The notes under the pieces were generated by a model. It saw only the letters and a list, made by a program, of their open reading frames with translations. It was not told the origin of the DNA and made no database searches. Positions 49,948 to 62,781 of a stretch of DNA of 64,000 nucleotides are shown here, piece after piece. The stretch is from Thermococcus nautili (GTDB lineage: Archaea > Methanobacteriota_B > Thermococci > Thermococcales > Thermococcaceae): the NCBI RefSeq assembly GCF_000585495.1, contig NZ_CP007264.1:1240001-1304000 (forward strand), in the 5' to 3' direction. How positions within the stretch are numbered: position 1 is the first letter of the stretch; every line of letters begins with the position of its first letter. The position numbers and the translations under genes were made by a program.

Positions 49948-53742
<3,795 letters not shown>

Positions 53743-54579: not shown

Positions 54580-55161
54580 TCACTGGCTCGCGTCGAGCCT
54601 CAGCGTCACGTCTATTCCATCGGTCTGACACTCGTTGCCCGCCTTGGCCGGGAGTTCAAGGGTCATCCTTACTTCAGCCTTCTCCCCCGGCTTGAGCTTT
54701 ACCGGCAGGGATATCGTCTTCCCGCTGAGCTCGTCGAGGGTTCTGTTCACGGGGATTGTTCTTCCGTTCACGCTGATTGTTTTCAGAACCAGCCACTTTC
54801 CGAGTTCTCCTTTTTCGGGGGTTGAATCAACGGCTTTCTCCGCCGGGGACATCTTCACCTCGTAGTTTCGGACGTTTAGCGTCAGTGTCAGCCGGTTCAT
54901 CGTGACCGTGCCCCTGTTCTTGACGAGGAATGTCACGTTTCTGTTCTCCCCGGGGAGCAGGTTGCTCAGGTCGAAGAGCTTGAGCTCGTTGTAGAAGCGC
55001 TTTCCGTCCTTACTTATGGCGATGTCGAACTCGGCAGTTGTCACGGTGTTGCCCTTAGAGATTGCCGCGTCGGTGAAGTGGGATTTGGCTGCTCCGGAGA
55101 CAGCTACTATCAGCGCCACTACAACAACGATTATCCGAAGTTCTACCTTAACTGCTTTCAT
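54580..55161 (-). CDS. TasA/CalY (camelysin)-like secreted protein
   Basis: A 193-residue secreted protein. A hydrophobic leader (IIVVVVALIVAVSGAA) runs straight into KSHFTDAAISKGNTVTTAEFDI, the hallmark of SipW-dependent TasA/CalY proteins (FxD...SxGNTxxxGxxDI). The rest is a beta sandwich with LPGENRNVTFLVKNRGTV and LKPGEKAEVRMTLELP. Bacterial TasA forms biofilm fibres, and archaeal homologues form bundling pili by donor-strand exchange; the same role is inferred here. ATG 55161 follows a weak GGTG; TATA ACATATAAGG lies on the minus strand near 55193-55201. Confidence 0.78.
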   Translation of the reverse strand: MKAVKVELRIIVVVVALIVAVSGAAKSHFTDAAISKGNTVTTAEFDIAISKDGKRFYNELKLFDLSNLLPGENRNVTFLVKNRGTVTMNRLTLTLNVRNYEVKMSPAEKAVDSTPEKGELGKWLVLKTISVNGRTIPVNRTLDELSGKTISLPVKLKPGEKAEVRMTLELPAKAGNECQTDGIDVTLRLDASQ

Positions 55162-55224
55162 TAGTAACACCGTATAATGTTGGAAGTACCCCTTATATGT
55201 TTTTCGATGTTCGGAAGTAACTAG

Positions 55225-56226
55225 TCACTCATGGACATAGATATTCAGCTTGAGGCTCTGAATTGTTCCGTTGACGGCCCCCAAAATGAGCTCTCTTGCG
55301 GGGGTCTCAGCGTAGTTTCCATCCTGCGGTGCGGGGGGAAGTCTTGGCTGGCTGTCTTTGAACAGGAGGAACCACAGCTGCCACCTGCCGGGTCTGTCTA
55401 TGCTGAACGTGTAGTTGGTCTCGAATTGGGGTGTCCAGTTGCCCTCGATGTTGACTGGAACTGGTGGGAGGGTTACGTTAAACCATCCGGGCATTGGATA
55501 CATCTCATGGATTATCGTCGTGTTTGTTTGGTTGTCCCAGGTCAGGTTCACGAGCCAAATTTGAACGTAGTATGTCACGTTTCTGTGCTCGTGGTTGACG
55601 ATGCCAATGATTACCGTTGCATTCTGTCCGACTTTGAGGTCTGTTGGGTAGTCGCTCGCTTTTCCGTTTGGACCGAGGATGTAGAACTCCGTGAAAGCTT
55701 CTCCGGGCTTGGGATGGGTCACAACATAGGTCAAGACTCCTACGGAGGTCACAATTGCGATTATCAGAATCACGGTGAGGGCTTTATCGAGCCTGCTCGC
55801 GGTCTCCCACTCCAGTTCCCGTTTTATGTCTTCCAGGGTTACCCAGGGAATCCAGGGTTCAATTGCGTTTTTCCTCCTGTAAATTGCCGCGAGGGCGGAG
55901 ATAATGTTAAATGCAGTTAGGCTGATTAGAATTGGCTTCAGCCTTATCCCCCAGGGGGTGTAGTTCAGGGCCAAACCGATGAGCGGAACTATCGCTATGC
56001 TGAGTCCGAAGCTCAGGGCGAGCCTCTCAAGGTTATCGAGCTCTTTTCTCTCTGGAAATAGGGCGGTAATAAATGCGTAGCCTGGGAAAAAGAGCACAAA
56101 CGCTAAACCAAGGGCCTTTCTCGCGAGGCTGTCTGGGAAGGCTAGTATAAGGATGTCCAGAAGGACTGAGAGGCATATCAGCGTCACAAGGTCCCAGTAC
56201 TTCCATACGCCCCGAGGCTCTCGCAA
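55225..56226 (-). CDS. DUF1616 membrane protein
   Basis: A 333-residue protein: about four membrane segments in the N-terminal 120 residues, a cytosolic linker, one more membrane segment (ALTVILIIAIVTSVGVLTYVV), then the extracytoplasmic domain of DUF1616 (EFYILGPNGKASDYPTDLKVG) rich in Asn-X-Ser/Thr sites. DUF1616 proteins often adjoin surface-glycan or S-layer genes. Start ATG 56226 is directly before the next upstream stop, in one operon. Confidence 0.85.
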   Translation of the reverse strand: MREPRGVWKYWDLVTLICLSVLLDILILAFPDSLARKALGLAFVLFFPGYAFITALFPERKELDNLERLALSFGLSIAIVPLIGLALNYTPWGIRLKPILISLTAFNIISALAAIYRRKNAIEPWIPWVTLEDIKRELEWETASRLDKALTVILIIAIVTSVGVLTYVVTHPKPGEAFTEFYILGPNGKASDYPTDLKVGQNATVIIGIVNHEHRNVTYYVQIWLVNLTWDNQTNTTIIHEMYPMPGWFNVTLPPVPVNIEGNWTPQFETNYTFSIDRPGRWQLWFLLFKDSQPRLPPAPQDGNYAETPARELILGAVNGTIQSLKLNIYVHE

Positions 56227-56475
56227 CTACCTTCCCCCCGAGAGGATTGAGTATACACGTCCCATAACGATGATTGCGAACACCACTATCAGGAGCTCGA
56301 GGAGGGGTTTTAAACTCTCCTTCTGCTCCCTGCTCAGGAAGAGGCTTCCCACCTCAACGGTTATTAGAAGGCCTATGAGGGTTAGGGTCAGGAAAACGCT
56401 TACGCTCGATGTAGCCAGAGCAGAAATCAAAATCCAGACTGACAGGAAGAGGAGCATGTAGTCCTCTACATCCAT
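56227..56475 (-). CDS. Small membrane protein
   Basis: An 82-residue protein with about three membrane segments (LLFLSVWILISAL, VFLTLTLIGLLITVEV, LLELLIVVFAIIVMG). It overlaps the upstream gene by 10 bases and abuts the DUF1616 gene, so it is part of the operon. No family recognised. Confidence 0.7.
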   Translation of the reverse strand: MDVEDYMLLFLSVWILISALATSSVSVFLTLTLIGLLITVEVGSLFLSREQKESLKPLLELLIVVFAIIVMGRVYSILSGGR

Positions 56476-57212
56476 TTCTCGACTCCTCCTAGCTTTCTGA
56501 CGGTCACTTCAATTCCGTAGTCCTTTTCTTCAACGGATTCAACGGCGAGCACCTGATTCGTTCCCTTTGCAAGTGCGAGTAGAACTGAGGCGCATATTGG
56601 ACAGGGAGCCTTCTCGCAGTTCCTTGGTCTGCATCCGATTGTTGGTCGAATTACCACCCGAAATCCATCTTCTTTCTCCTCTATGTACACCCTGTCGGCT
56701 AGCTCAAGGTATCGGAGAACGGAGCCCGCGACGCTCTCAACGGCTCCGCTGCCGGCTCCATTGAGCGGTCCCTCAAAGTGCTCCTCAAATTTTTCTACCA
56801 AAGAACTCCCGAAGGGTCCGAGGAAAAGCCCCATCGCCCGGTCGTTGGGAACGTCTGTGAGGAAGACAGTTCCCTCATCAAGCCTCGCTAGGTCAAGCTC
56901 AAACTTATCGTGGAGGGGCACGAAGAGTCCGCCCCTCGGAAGGTTCTCGTAGGGCGGTATGAAGACGGCGTTTCCTTCGAGGTACAGGTTGTCCGCAAAG
57001 GTTGAGAAAACTCTCCGATACGGCTCCATAATCGCCTGAACGCTTTCCTTTTTTACGTAGTCGCTGGATTTAAATGTAAGCACAACGAGGCCCAAGAAAA
57101 CGCCGGCTATACCAAGGTTGGTGAGGGTGGTTTTAACGTTCATGAACCCGTAGATTGCGAGTGCGAGCCCGGTTATCATAAGGGTTAATCCCGAGGCTTC
57201 CCTTACCTTCAT
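56466..57212 (-). CDS. Membrane-anchored protein with Cys cluster
   Basis: A 248-residue protein: two N-terminal membrane segments, then a cytosolic domain of unknown fold. A four-Cys cluster CRPRNCEKAPCPIC near residue 195 may bind metal. IPPYENLPRGGLFVPL is a notable central motif. It opens the minus-strand operon and shares a bidirectional TATA with the DUF4129 cluster. Confidence 0.72.
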   Translation of the reverse strand: MKVREASGLTLMITGLALAIYGFMNVKTTLTNLGIAGVFLGLVVLTFKSSDYVKKESVQAIMEPYRRVFSTFADNLYLEGNAVFIPPYENLPRGGLFVPLHDKFELDLARLDEGTVFLTDVPNDRAMGLFLGPFGSSLVEKFEEHFEGPLNGAGSGAVESVAGSVLRYLELADRVYIEEKEDGFRVVIRPTIGCRPRNCEKAPCPICASVLLALAKGTNQVLAVESVEEKDYGIEVTVRKLGGVEKWM

Positions 57213-57238: not shown

Positions 57239-57254
57239 AACCTTATAAAAGGTT
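57239..57254. promoter_or_regulatory. Near-symmetric TATA shared by two divergent operons
   Basis: AACCTT-ATAA-AAGGTT can be read as a TATA box on both strands (TTATAAAAG and TTTTATAAG). Predicted starts are near 57272 on the plus strand and 57221 on the minus strand, each just before its first gene. No other TATA is seen in the 67-base gap. Confidence 0.55.
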
Positions 57255-57279
57255 TTCTCGTTTCCGTTCGCGGGGTATT

Positions 57280-59013
57280 ATGAAGAAGGTTTCCGCAATC
57301 CTGTTGCTGTTGCTTTCCCTAACGATGATTCCCCCCTCCTCGGCGGGCTCACCTCTGAGTACTCCTTACTACGTGTACTATGGCAATCTCCTCAACAGGA
57401 CAGCTTCCCTTCTCTCTGGGGTGCTGGAGGGCAACGCCTCAGTGGGAGATGCCTTGGAGCTGCTCTCCGTTGCGAATTCCACGTATTTTACGCTTCTCTC
57501 CTACAACGCTTCAAACGATGTCCTTACCCTCGCCCGCTCCTTCGTTGAGCTTGAGAAGGGTGTTCTGCTGATAGTTAACGGGAGCACTTCCCTCAACTCC
57601 TCACTTTCGAGCGGGAACTACGAGGTAGCGAGGCAGCACATAGCATCTGTTGTGGATGGCATCTCCCTCGTTAGAAACTCCCTTCAAATTATCTCTGAGT
57701 TTTCCTTCGGCGTTAACGGTAGTGAAGCTTCCCTTAACACGACTGCCCTTGATGAGCTTGTTGTCGAAATCTCGCGCGAATTCCGTTCAAAGGAGAACGC
57801 CGTCAACGAAGCTGCCGGGTTGAGGTTCTCTATATTCGTTTCCAAGGCAAGACCTTTCGTTGGGGAAAACGTTACAATCTTTGGGTACGCCCCCAATATG
57901 AGCCGGGTTGTTCTCCATATTGGCAACTACTCGGTTCTCCTTCCGGTTGCTGAGGGGAAGTTCTCTTACGTGTACTCTTTCCCCTCCACTGGGGTTTACG
58001 AGGTCTACGCGGTTGGTACAAACGCAACCGGGGAGCACCGCTCGAACACGGTTGAGGTTGAGGTTCTCCGCGTTCCGGTCTTCATTACCTTCGGCACCTG
58101 CGCAAACCTCTCCGGTGTGTGCGGCTACGTTAGCGATGCCCTGGGCAACCCACTCAAAAACGCTCCCCTGGTGGTTCGCTGGGGAAGCACCGCTAGGGGT
58201 GTCTTCACGGATAGGGATGGGCAGTTTTTTGTTCCACTTAAAACAACCGGCCCGGTATGGGTGGACGTTCTCTACTTCGGAGATGAAGTTCACTCCCCCG
58301 CGAGTGCCTTTACAGAGTTCGTTCCCCAGAGGGTTCCCCTCATAATAAAGCTCTCCGTCTCCAAAGTTTCCCCCTTCTCCGGAGAAGCAACCGTTGAGGG
58401 GCGCCTGCTTCCGTCTCCCGGGGGTTTGATTGCCCTCGACGTTTACGTGGATGGTTCCTTTTACTCCCGCCTCTTCGTTTCGAAGGGGGAGTTCACGCTC
58501 ACAATACCAACAGGAAGCAGACCCCATGAAGTCTACGTAGTTTTCAGGGGAAACCAGAGATACCTGCCCGCCAGGTCAAACACCTTAGTGATAACTCCCC
58601 CGCTGATTCCGATGGCAAGGGTTGCCCTTTTCGTGTCCCTGCTCGTCATAGCGTTCCTTGCGTACCGTATGTTTGGCAGGGAGAGTTCAGGCTCCCCTGA
58701 GCGGGTGGAAAAACCGGACTCGGGCTCGTTGGAGTGGGGCTTGAAGGAAAGGGCTTTCTCCTCCGTGCGTGAGGTTTACGTCCTCGTTTACAGCGCCCTG
58801 CTGAGGCTCCGGGGATTGCCCAGGTCTACGACGCCCAGAGAGCTCCTCGGTGAGTTTAGACGGTTCCCGTTTGGAAAGGATTTGCTCACCCTCACGACCC
58901 TTCACGAGCTTGAGGTTTACAGAGGGATTAAGGCGAAGGCCTCAACGGTTCGCGGTGCGGTTAGAACTGCTTCGAGGGTTCTGCTATCGGCGATAATCGG
59001 TGATGAGCTGTGA
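57280..59013 (+). CDS. Secreted Ig-like protein with C-terminal DUF4129-like domain
   Basis: A 577-residue protein: signal peptide (AILLLLLSLTMIPPSSAG), a helical ectodomain rich in glycosylation sites (about 25-185), Ig/carboxypeptidase-regulatory-like beta domains (about 190-440, LGNPLKNAPLVVRWG...GVFTDRDGQF), a membrane segment (VALFVSLLVIAFLAY) and a cytosolic DUF4129-like part (LRGLPRSTTPRELLGEF). It starts the DUF4129-DUF4350-MoxR-DUF58 cluster, a widespread unit of unknown function. Confidence 0.8.
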   Translation: MKKVSAILLLLLSLTMIPPSSAGSPLSTPYYVYYGNLLNRTASLLSGVLEGNASVGDALELLSVANSTYFTLLSYNASNDVLTLARSFVELEKGVLLIVNGSTSLNSSLSSGNYEVARQHIASVVDGISLVRNSLQIISEFSFGVNGSEASLNTTALDELVVEISREFRSKENAVNEAAGLRFSIFVSKARPFVGENVTIFGYAPNMSRVVLHIGNYSVLLPVAEGKFSYVYSFPSTGVYEVYAVGTNATGEHRSNTVEVEVLRVPVFITFGTCANLSGVCGYVSDALGNPLKNAPLVVRWGSTARGVFTDRDGQFFVPLKTTGPVWVDVLYFGDEVHSPASAFTEFVPQRVPLIIKLSVSKVSPFSGEATVEGRLLPSPGGLIALDVYVDGSFYSRLFVSKGEFTLTIPTGSRPHEVYVVFRGNQRYLPARSNTLVITPPLIPMARVALFVSLLVIAFLAYRMFGRESSGSPERVEKPDSGSLEWGLKERAFSSVREVYVLVYSALLRLRGLPRSTTPRELLGEFRRFPFGKDLLTLTTLHELEVYRGIKAKASTVRGAVRTASRVLLSAIIGDEL

Positions 59014-62238: not shown

Positions 62239-62781
62239 GTGATTGGTGTTTTACTCTCGATAATCGCCGGTTACTGGGCCGGGACTTACGCGGGGGCGCT
62301 CTCGATAGTGCCCTGGCTGCTCTCGCTGAAGAGAAGAGACGCCGGGCTGGTGGCGTTCTTTCTCTACGCCATCTACCTGGGCAACTCCGTTCAGGTTTCG
62401 ACGGTGTACTCTTACTCTTCATTGATTGCAGTCCTTTCCTTTTCCCTGGCCCTCATTGTCCTCCTCGACGACGTTCTAACGGGAAGGCTTCTACCGGGGA
62501 GAAGGGAGTTAATTGCGGTTCCCTTCATACTCCTCGGGGCCCTCTTTCCGGAGTCGCTGATTGTTGGCGGGGCCGTTGTTCTTGTCTCCAGAGTGAGGTT
62601 TGGACGGATTGCCGGCGCGGTCTTGGGGATTACAATTGTAGCGTTCGCCCTGCTTAGGGAAACCCTGGATTACGCGGGCTCCGCTCCGGCGCAGGTGGCG
62701 GTTACAGCCGCGGTTGGGGTTTTTGTAATCCTAGTTATCTTAACTCGGAAAATGTTTAAAAAAACAGTACTTAAGCTTTAG
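62239..62781 (+). CDS. Polytopic membrane protein closing the MoxR/DUF58 cluster
   Basis: A 180-residue, almost wholly hydrophobic protein with about six membrane segments. It starts at GTG 62239 directly after the DUF58 stop. No motif recognised; by position it belongs to the cluster. It ends in a Lys-rich tail (RKMFKKTVLKL). Confidence 0.7.
   Translation: MIGVLLSIIAGYWAGTYAGALSIVPWLLSLKRRDAGLVAFFLYAIYLGNSVQVSTVYSYSSLIAVLSFSLALIVLLDDVLTGRLLPGRRELIAVPFILLGALFPESLIVGGAVVLVSRVRFGRIAGAVLGITIVAFALLRETLDYAGSAPAQVAVTAAVGVFVILVILTRKMFKKTVLKL

Follow-up and report, generated by a model that had tools for sequence, protein, structure and literature searches.

The stretch of Thermococcus nautili DNA analysed here, 64,000 nucleotides in all and referred to as the window, carries a minus-strand gene, tasL, beside the genes of a DUF1616 protein, an 82-aa protein and a Cys-cluster protein, and raises the question of whether these archaea export a fibre-forming protein of the TasA/CalY family and whether the adjoining genes take part in its assembly. 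The TasA/CalY family includes fibres that hold Bacillus biofilms together, and Thermococcus and Pyrococcus serve as genetic models for hyperthermophiles. The initial annotation had recognised the four minus-strand ORFs, all of which are present at the coordinates given below, and had joined them into one operon for a TasA-like protein and its possible assembly factors. We find that tasL is most likely a single-copy, stand-alone member of the TasA/CalY superfamily distributed throughout the Thermococcaceae, and that its neighbours belong elsewhere.

The tasL product and its relation to TasA

The genome carrying tasL is closed and 1.98 Mb in size. The gene (54580..55161, minus strand) encodes a TasA/CalY-type exported protein of 193 aa between an ATG at 55161 and a stop at 54580. 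In the list of open reading frames it extends from an upstream GTG (54580-55170); judging from the sequence, the ATG at 55161 is the likelier start, as the orthologues align to it and a GGTG ribosome-binding site favours it.

That tasL is TasA/CalY-like, as initially proposed, is a point on which Pfam, a profile of its orthologues run against the PDB and structure models agree. In the Pfam search tasL passes the gathering cut-off of PF12389 narrowly (22.8 bits, cut-off 22.5), and 47 of 49 orthologues match this family at E<=0.01, the best at 2.4e-11. The orthologue profile finds TasA in the PDB (8aur and 5of1) at E about 9e-4. Two AlphaFold models, of the full-length and the mature protein, reached pLDDT values of 69 and 64, each resting on 3 sequences, shallow alignments that give low to moderate confidence. 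With both models Foldseek returned the TasA structures 5of1, 5of2 and 8aur as the top three at probability 1.00, with TM values of 0.48-0.61 by query length; a missing TasA fold, which the initial annotation named as a refutation, is thus not what the models predict. The N-terminal segment of the models has a pLDDT below 50, as would be expected of a free donor strand but equally of a shallow alignment. As the tasL profile also matches the TasA proteins of a SipW locus in the same genome over the full length (99.4%, 184 columns), the homology reaches beyond the leader, and a C-terminal GNExQxD...Q motif is common to tasL and these proteins. An orthologue of Bacillus TasA in the strict sense it is not, since it scores 19.7 bits with the NCBIfam equivalog NF046066, which requires 450. 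A reading of the region as a defence system was also rejected, PADLOC giving zero matches.

tasL does have the leader that runs into FTDAAISKGNTVTTAEFDI, and the hydrophobic N-terminus and the cleavage-site pattern predict a signal peptide of residues 1-27 (55081..55161, minus strand) that would be cut between AKS and HFTD. In 64 of 64 distinct orthologues P1 is S, A or G and P3 a small residue (G, A or S, with Val in three), and the same 64 carry Phe at P2' and Asp at P4'; export, the lack of which would have refuted the initial reading, is what this pattern predicts. The arrangement is that of TasA, which bacterial P-type signal peptidase processes poorly, in part owing to the P2' Phe, and which is cut by the archaeal-like SipW (PMC10269814). 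The ER-type/archaeal signal peptidase family TIGR02228 finds a match in 74 of 74 near-complete family genomes, so that in principle tasL would need no dedicated peptidase.

No SipW gene adjoins tasL in the window, as the initial annotation had stated, and the genome search that it recommended does find a SipW-type S26 peptidase elsewhere in the same genome, yet this peptidase belongs to a separate and patchy TasA locus. The latter lies ~93 kb from tasL, outside the window (G000:C1 about 1197986-1202507; L003 9987-14508), and holds a winged-helix (wHTH) regulator, three TasA-like genes, of which the third is recognised by its leader alone and has no Pfam match, a long S26 peptidase and a DUF5305 gene. 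No SipW was found beside tasL in the genomic contexts inspected, those of relocated tasL genes included. An adjacent dedicated SipW characterises the B. subtilis operon rather than membership in the TasA/CalY superfamily.

For the distribution of tasL we compared 94 genomes as a family, taken as Thermococcaceae, of which 74 are near-complete. Orthologues occur in 77 of the 94 and in 66 of the 74 (~89%), whereas the long SipW-type peptidase is found in 11 of the 94. Complete orthologues score 236-310 bits with the tasL profile, one fragment at a contig edge scores 92 and other TasA-like proteins reach at most 52, a gap that sets tasL and the other TasA-like proteins apart as two separate groups. 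Cleavage site, promoter and Cys were assessed in the 64 distinct sequences, invariance and Pfam matches in 49 aligned ones; among the latter F29, D31 and S35 are invariant and the mean column identity is 55%. The Pfam match, the spread of orthologues and these invariant residues take the observation beyond chance. Outside the Thermococcaceae, no relative was found within the phylum at E<=1e-5, and the plasmid collection gave no match. A protein 85% identical to tasL is present in a Thermococcus MAG, and the scan of named genomes returned only two Thermococcus MAG loci. We found no description of the tasL group in the literature covered, nor a TasA-type fibre of Thermococcus or Pyrococcus, the coverage excluding the bundling-pili paper of Wang et al. 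2022; a search joining Thermococcus with camelysin gave no paper.

Two observations concern individual members of the family. A single Cys is found in 53 of 64 orthologues, within a C-terminal NECQTD motif; the SipW-locus paralogues and one genus have Ile in its place, and most tasL proteins keep the Cys though exported. The near-complete genomes G014, G017, G031, G033 and G044 lack tasL entirely and provide natural controls for its function.

Promoter, neighbours and the DUF4350-MoxR-DUF58 module

Next to tasL on the minus strand are the genes of a DUF1616 membrane protein (55225..56226; PF07760 at 291 bits, cut-off 31.6), of an 82-aa small membrane protein with three TM-like segments that is syntenic with DUF1616 (56227..56475) and of a 248-aa protein with two N-terminal TM-like segments, a C-terminal Cys cluster and no Pfam family (56466..57212). 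Most orthologues of the 248-aa protein keep the Cys cluster (CRPRNCEKAPCPIC here), a subgroup (L048, L091, L109, L110 and L119) being without it. On the other side of tasL a ribonucleotide reductase of 1100 aa (49948-53250, minus strand) carries what appears by eye to be a short intein without endonuclease (junction between VSKN and CGEE); in relatives the match to this protein falls into several pieces, a pattern that longer inserts would produce.

As read from the sequence, tasL has its own promoter, an archaeal BRE/TATA element (CGAAAAACATATAAGG; 55191..55206, minus strand). Such an element, matching at 8/10 or better, precedes 63 of the 64 tasL genes, in most cases at -57 to -61 relative to the ATG, compared with 28% of shuffles; at the 9/10 threshold the figures are 83% and 3.5%, an enrichment that is somewhat overstated because the shuffles preserve base composition only. 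The site in the window scores 8 and lies closer to the ATG, at -44. The unit formed by the Cys-protein, 82-aa and DUF1616 genes has a TATA-like site of its own (AAAACCTTTTATAAG; 57242..57256, minus strand), and the proposed operon of tasL with the DUF1616 and Cys-cluster genes is not supported.

Divergent from this unit, on the plus strand, run a 577-aa secreted Ig-like protein with a weak DUF4129 match (57280..59013), which is the first gene of a DUF4350-MoxR-DUF58 unit, a DUF4350 protein (PF14258; 59010..60023), a MoxR-type AAA+ ATPase (PF07726; 59974..60942, the real start probably 3' of the listed TTG), a DUF58 protein with a weak vWA match (PF01882; 60946..62238) and, as the final gene of the module, a 180-aa membrane protein with four TM-like segments (62239..62781). 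In 2015 Makarova and colleagues described this gene set as a putative novel secretion system composed of DUF4350, MoxR, vWA, Ig-like and DUF1616 (pfam07760) proteins together with small membrane proteins (PMC5898192). In Haloferax volcanii both the DUF1616 protein HVO_2173 and the protein HVO_2172 carry N-glycans (PMC8241124). In most of the Thermococcaceae loci examined the DUF1616, 82-aa and Cys genes are linked to DUF4350-MoxR-DUF58, often remaining there when tasL is elsewhere, and on haloarchaeal plasmids DUF1616 accompanies DUF58, mostly also MoxR and DUF4350, with no annotated TasA at the plasmid loci examined. The DUF1616, 82-aa and Cys proteins are therefore parts of this already described module. 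By the same measure of linkage tasL falls outside it, with its own promoter, its separability and its lack of association.

The separability is seen in the 54 genomes that have tasL and DUF1616 on one contig: the two lie within about 300 bp of each other in 31 (~57%), spread over several genera, and apart in 23, where the relocated tasL genes occupy several kinds of genomic context. Among the 74 near-complete genomes 59 have both genes, 7 only tasL, 8 only DUF1616 and none neither, which amounts to no positive association (Fisher p = 1), and three of the seven with tasL alone are single-contig assemblies. DUF1616 as an obligate partner of tasL was accordingly rejected. Given the own promoter, the separable linkage, the missing co-occurrence and the attachment of DUF1616 to the MoxR module, the DUF1616, 82-aa and Cys proteins are probably not assembly factors of tasL, contrary to what had been proposed for them. 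As the adjacency recurs in 31 genomes of several genera it is probably ancestral, and it may reflect a loose functional link.

Such a link could mean that the putative secretion system exports or assembles tasL, as its client or as one of its components. The ancestral-looking proximity to DUF1616 speaks for this, as does a module that consists of membrane proteins and extracellular Ig-like proteins and is predicted to act in secretion (PMC5898192), but we regard it as unlikely, since nearly all tasL genes have a promoter of their own, 23 lie elsewhere, tasL exists without DUF1616 in three single-contig genomes and DUF1616 without tasL in eight near-complete ones, and the haloarchaeal DUF1616-MoxR-DUF58 loci are without an annotated TasA, the plasmid collection likewise without tasL.

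A candidate donor-strand filament and its alternatives

The donor strand of TasA consists of residues 28-38, with F29 and I32 in hydrophobic contact with the following subunits (PMC9674648). The corresponding stretch of tasL, which contains F29, D31 and S35, is among its few invariant parts, and the mature N-terminus (residues 28-41, HFTDAAISKGNTVT; 55039..55080, minus strand) is by its position the presumed donor strand. Because the segment matching the TasA donor strand is so well conserved, we favour donor-strand filaments and propose that tasL is probably their stand-alone subunit, fibre formation being presumed from the likeness to TasA. According to this proposal tasL would be transcribed from its own promoter and made with a Sec-type signal peptide bearing the TasA cleavage signature, which would be cleaved by the archaeal (ER-type) signal peptidase that serves as housekeeping enzyme and not by a dedicated SipW. 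The mature protein, predicted from its sequence to be a full-length TasA-type beta domain, would then insert its freed N-terminal strand (about residues 28-41) into the next tasL subunit by donor-strand complementation, a step modelled on TasA and on archaeal bundling pili. The product would be thin extracellular filaments by which cells attach to one another or to surfaces, formed by tasL or with tasL as the main subunit, and neither DUF1616 nor the 82-aa protein nor the Cys protein would be needed. Several findings count against the proposal, besides the shallow alignments behind the models: no TapA-like partner or dedicated peptidase adjoins tasL, a mean column identity as high as that of tasL is unusual for an exposed fibre, and tasL stays beside DUF1616 in more than half of the genomes with both on one contig, which may point to an ancestral and perhaps functional link. 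It is plausible, though we advance it only tentatively, that the Thermococcaceae possess an undescribed filament, a SipW-independent, single-gene TasA-type fibre without a dedicated accessory gene, in ~89% of near-complete genomes.

The strong conservation of tasL, where exposed fibre proteins are often variable, together with its single copy and the three further TasA-like genes that accompany a SipW-type peptidase in the same genome, would also suit a minor subunit, namely a TapA-like nucleator, cap or anchor in filaments built mainly from another protein. We consider this to have a small chance of being correct. The long SipW-type locus is present in 11 of the 94 genomes and tasL in 77, so the proteins of that locus cannot be the usual partners of tasL, and the tasL domain is of full-length TasA type with its C-terminal part intact.

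Less probable still is that tasL is an exported TasA-fold protein which does not polymerise, being for example S-layer-associated or ligand-binding. High conservation, the single Cys of 53 orthologues and the lack of accessory genes agree with such a role, but the equivalent of the TasA donor strand is among the best-conserved parts of the protein. The notion of a camelysin-type metalloprotease, suggested by nothing but the Pfam name Peptidase_M73, is practically untenable and already contradicted by the sequence, which has one His, the non-conserved H28 at the cleavage site, and no HExxH-like motif.

Being conserved and separate from any SipW operon, tasL makes it simple to test whether matrix fibres of TasA type are built by these archaea, and whether the general export machinery alone suffices for a donor-strand fibre.

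Comparison with known systems

Among known proteins B. subtilis TasA (8aur, 5of1, 5of2) is the best match to tasL in both sequence and fold. The two share a signal peptide with P2' Phe, an N-terminal strand followed by a beta domain, and the LSNLxPG and N-G motifs. Unlike TasA, tasL is not part of a tapA/sipW operon, is shorter and shows about 14% identity in the fold alignment, and what is known of it here comes from sequence and models, from which fibre formation is presumed.

The archaeal TasA-type donor-strand proteins AbpA, the bundling pilus of Pyrobaculum calidifontis (7ueg), and 'Archaeal bundling protein X' (9rhp) belong to a different lineage and match tasL weakly, the former at rank 44 in the structure search and the latter at E 0.49 in the PDB profile search; by profile and by fold tasL is nearer to TasA than to AbpA. 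The TasA-SipW-DUF5305 locus of the same genome is of the same superfamily over the full length and yet differs from tasL in its three TasA-like genes, long SipW-type peptidase, DUF5305, wHTH regulator and patchy occurrence. Finally, the DUF1616 and membrane genes adjoining tasL are part of the arCOG01314 putative secretion system (DUF4350-MoxR-vWA-DUF1616; PMC5898192), whereas the text and table of that publication name no TasA-type protein and tasL is separable from the system.
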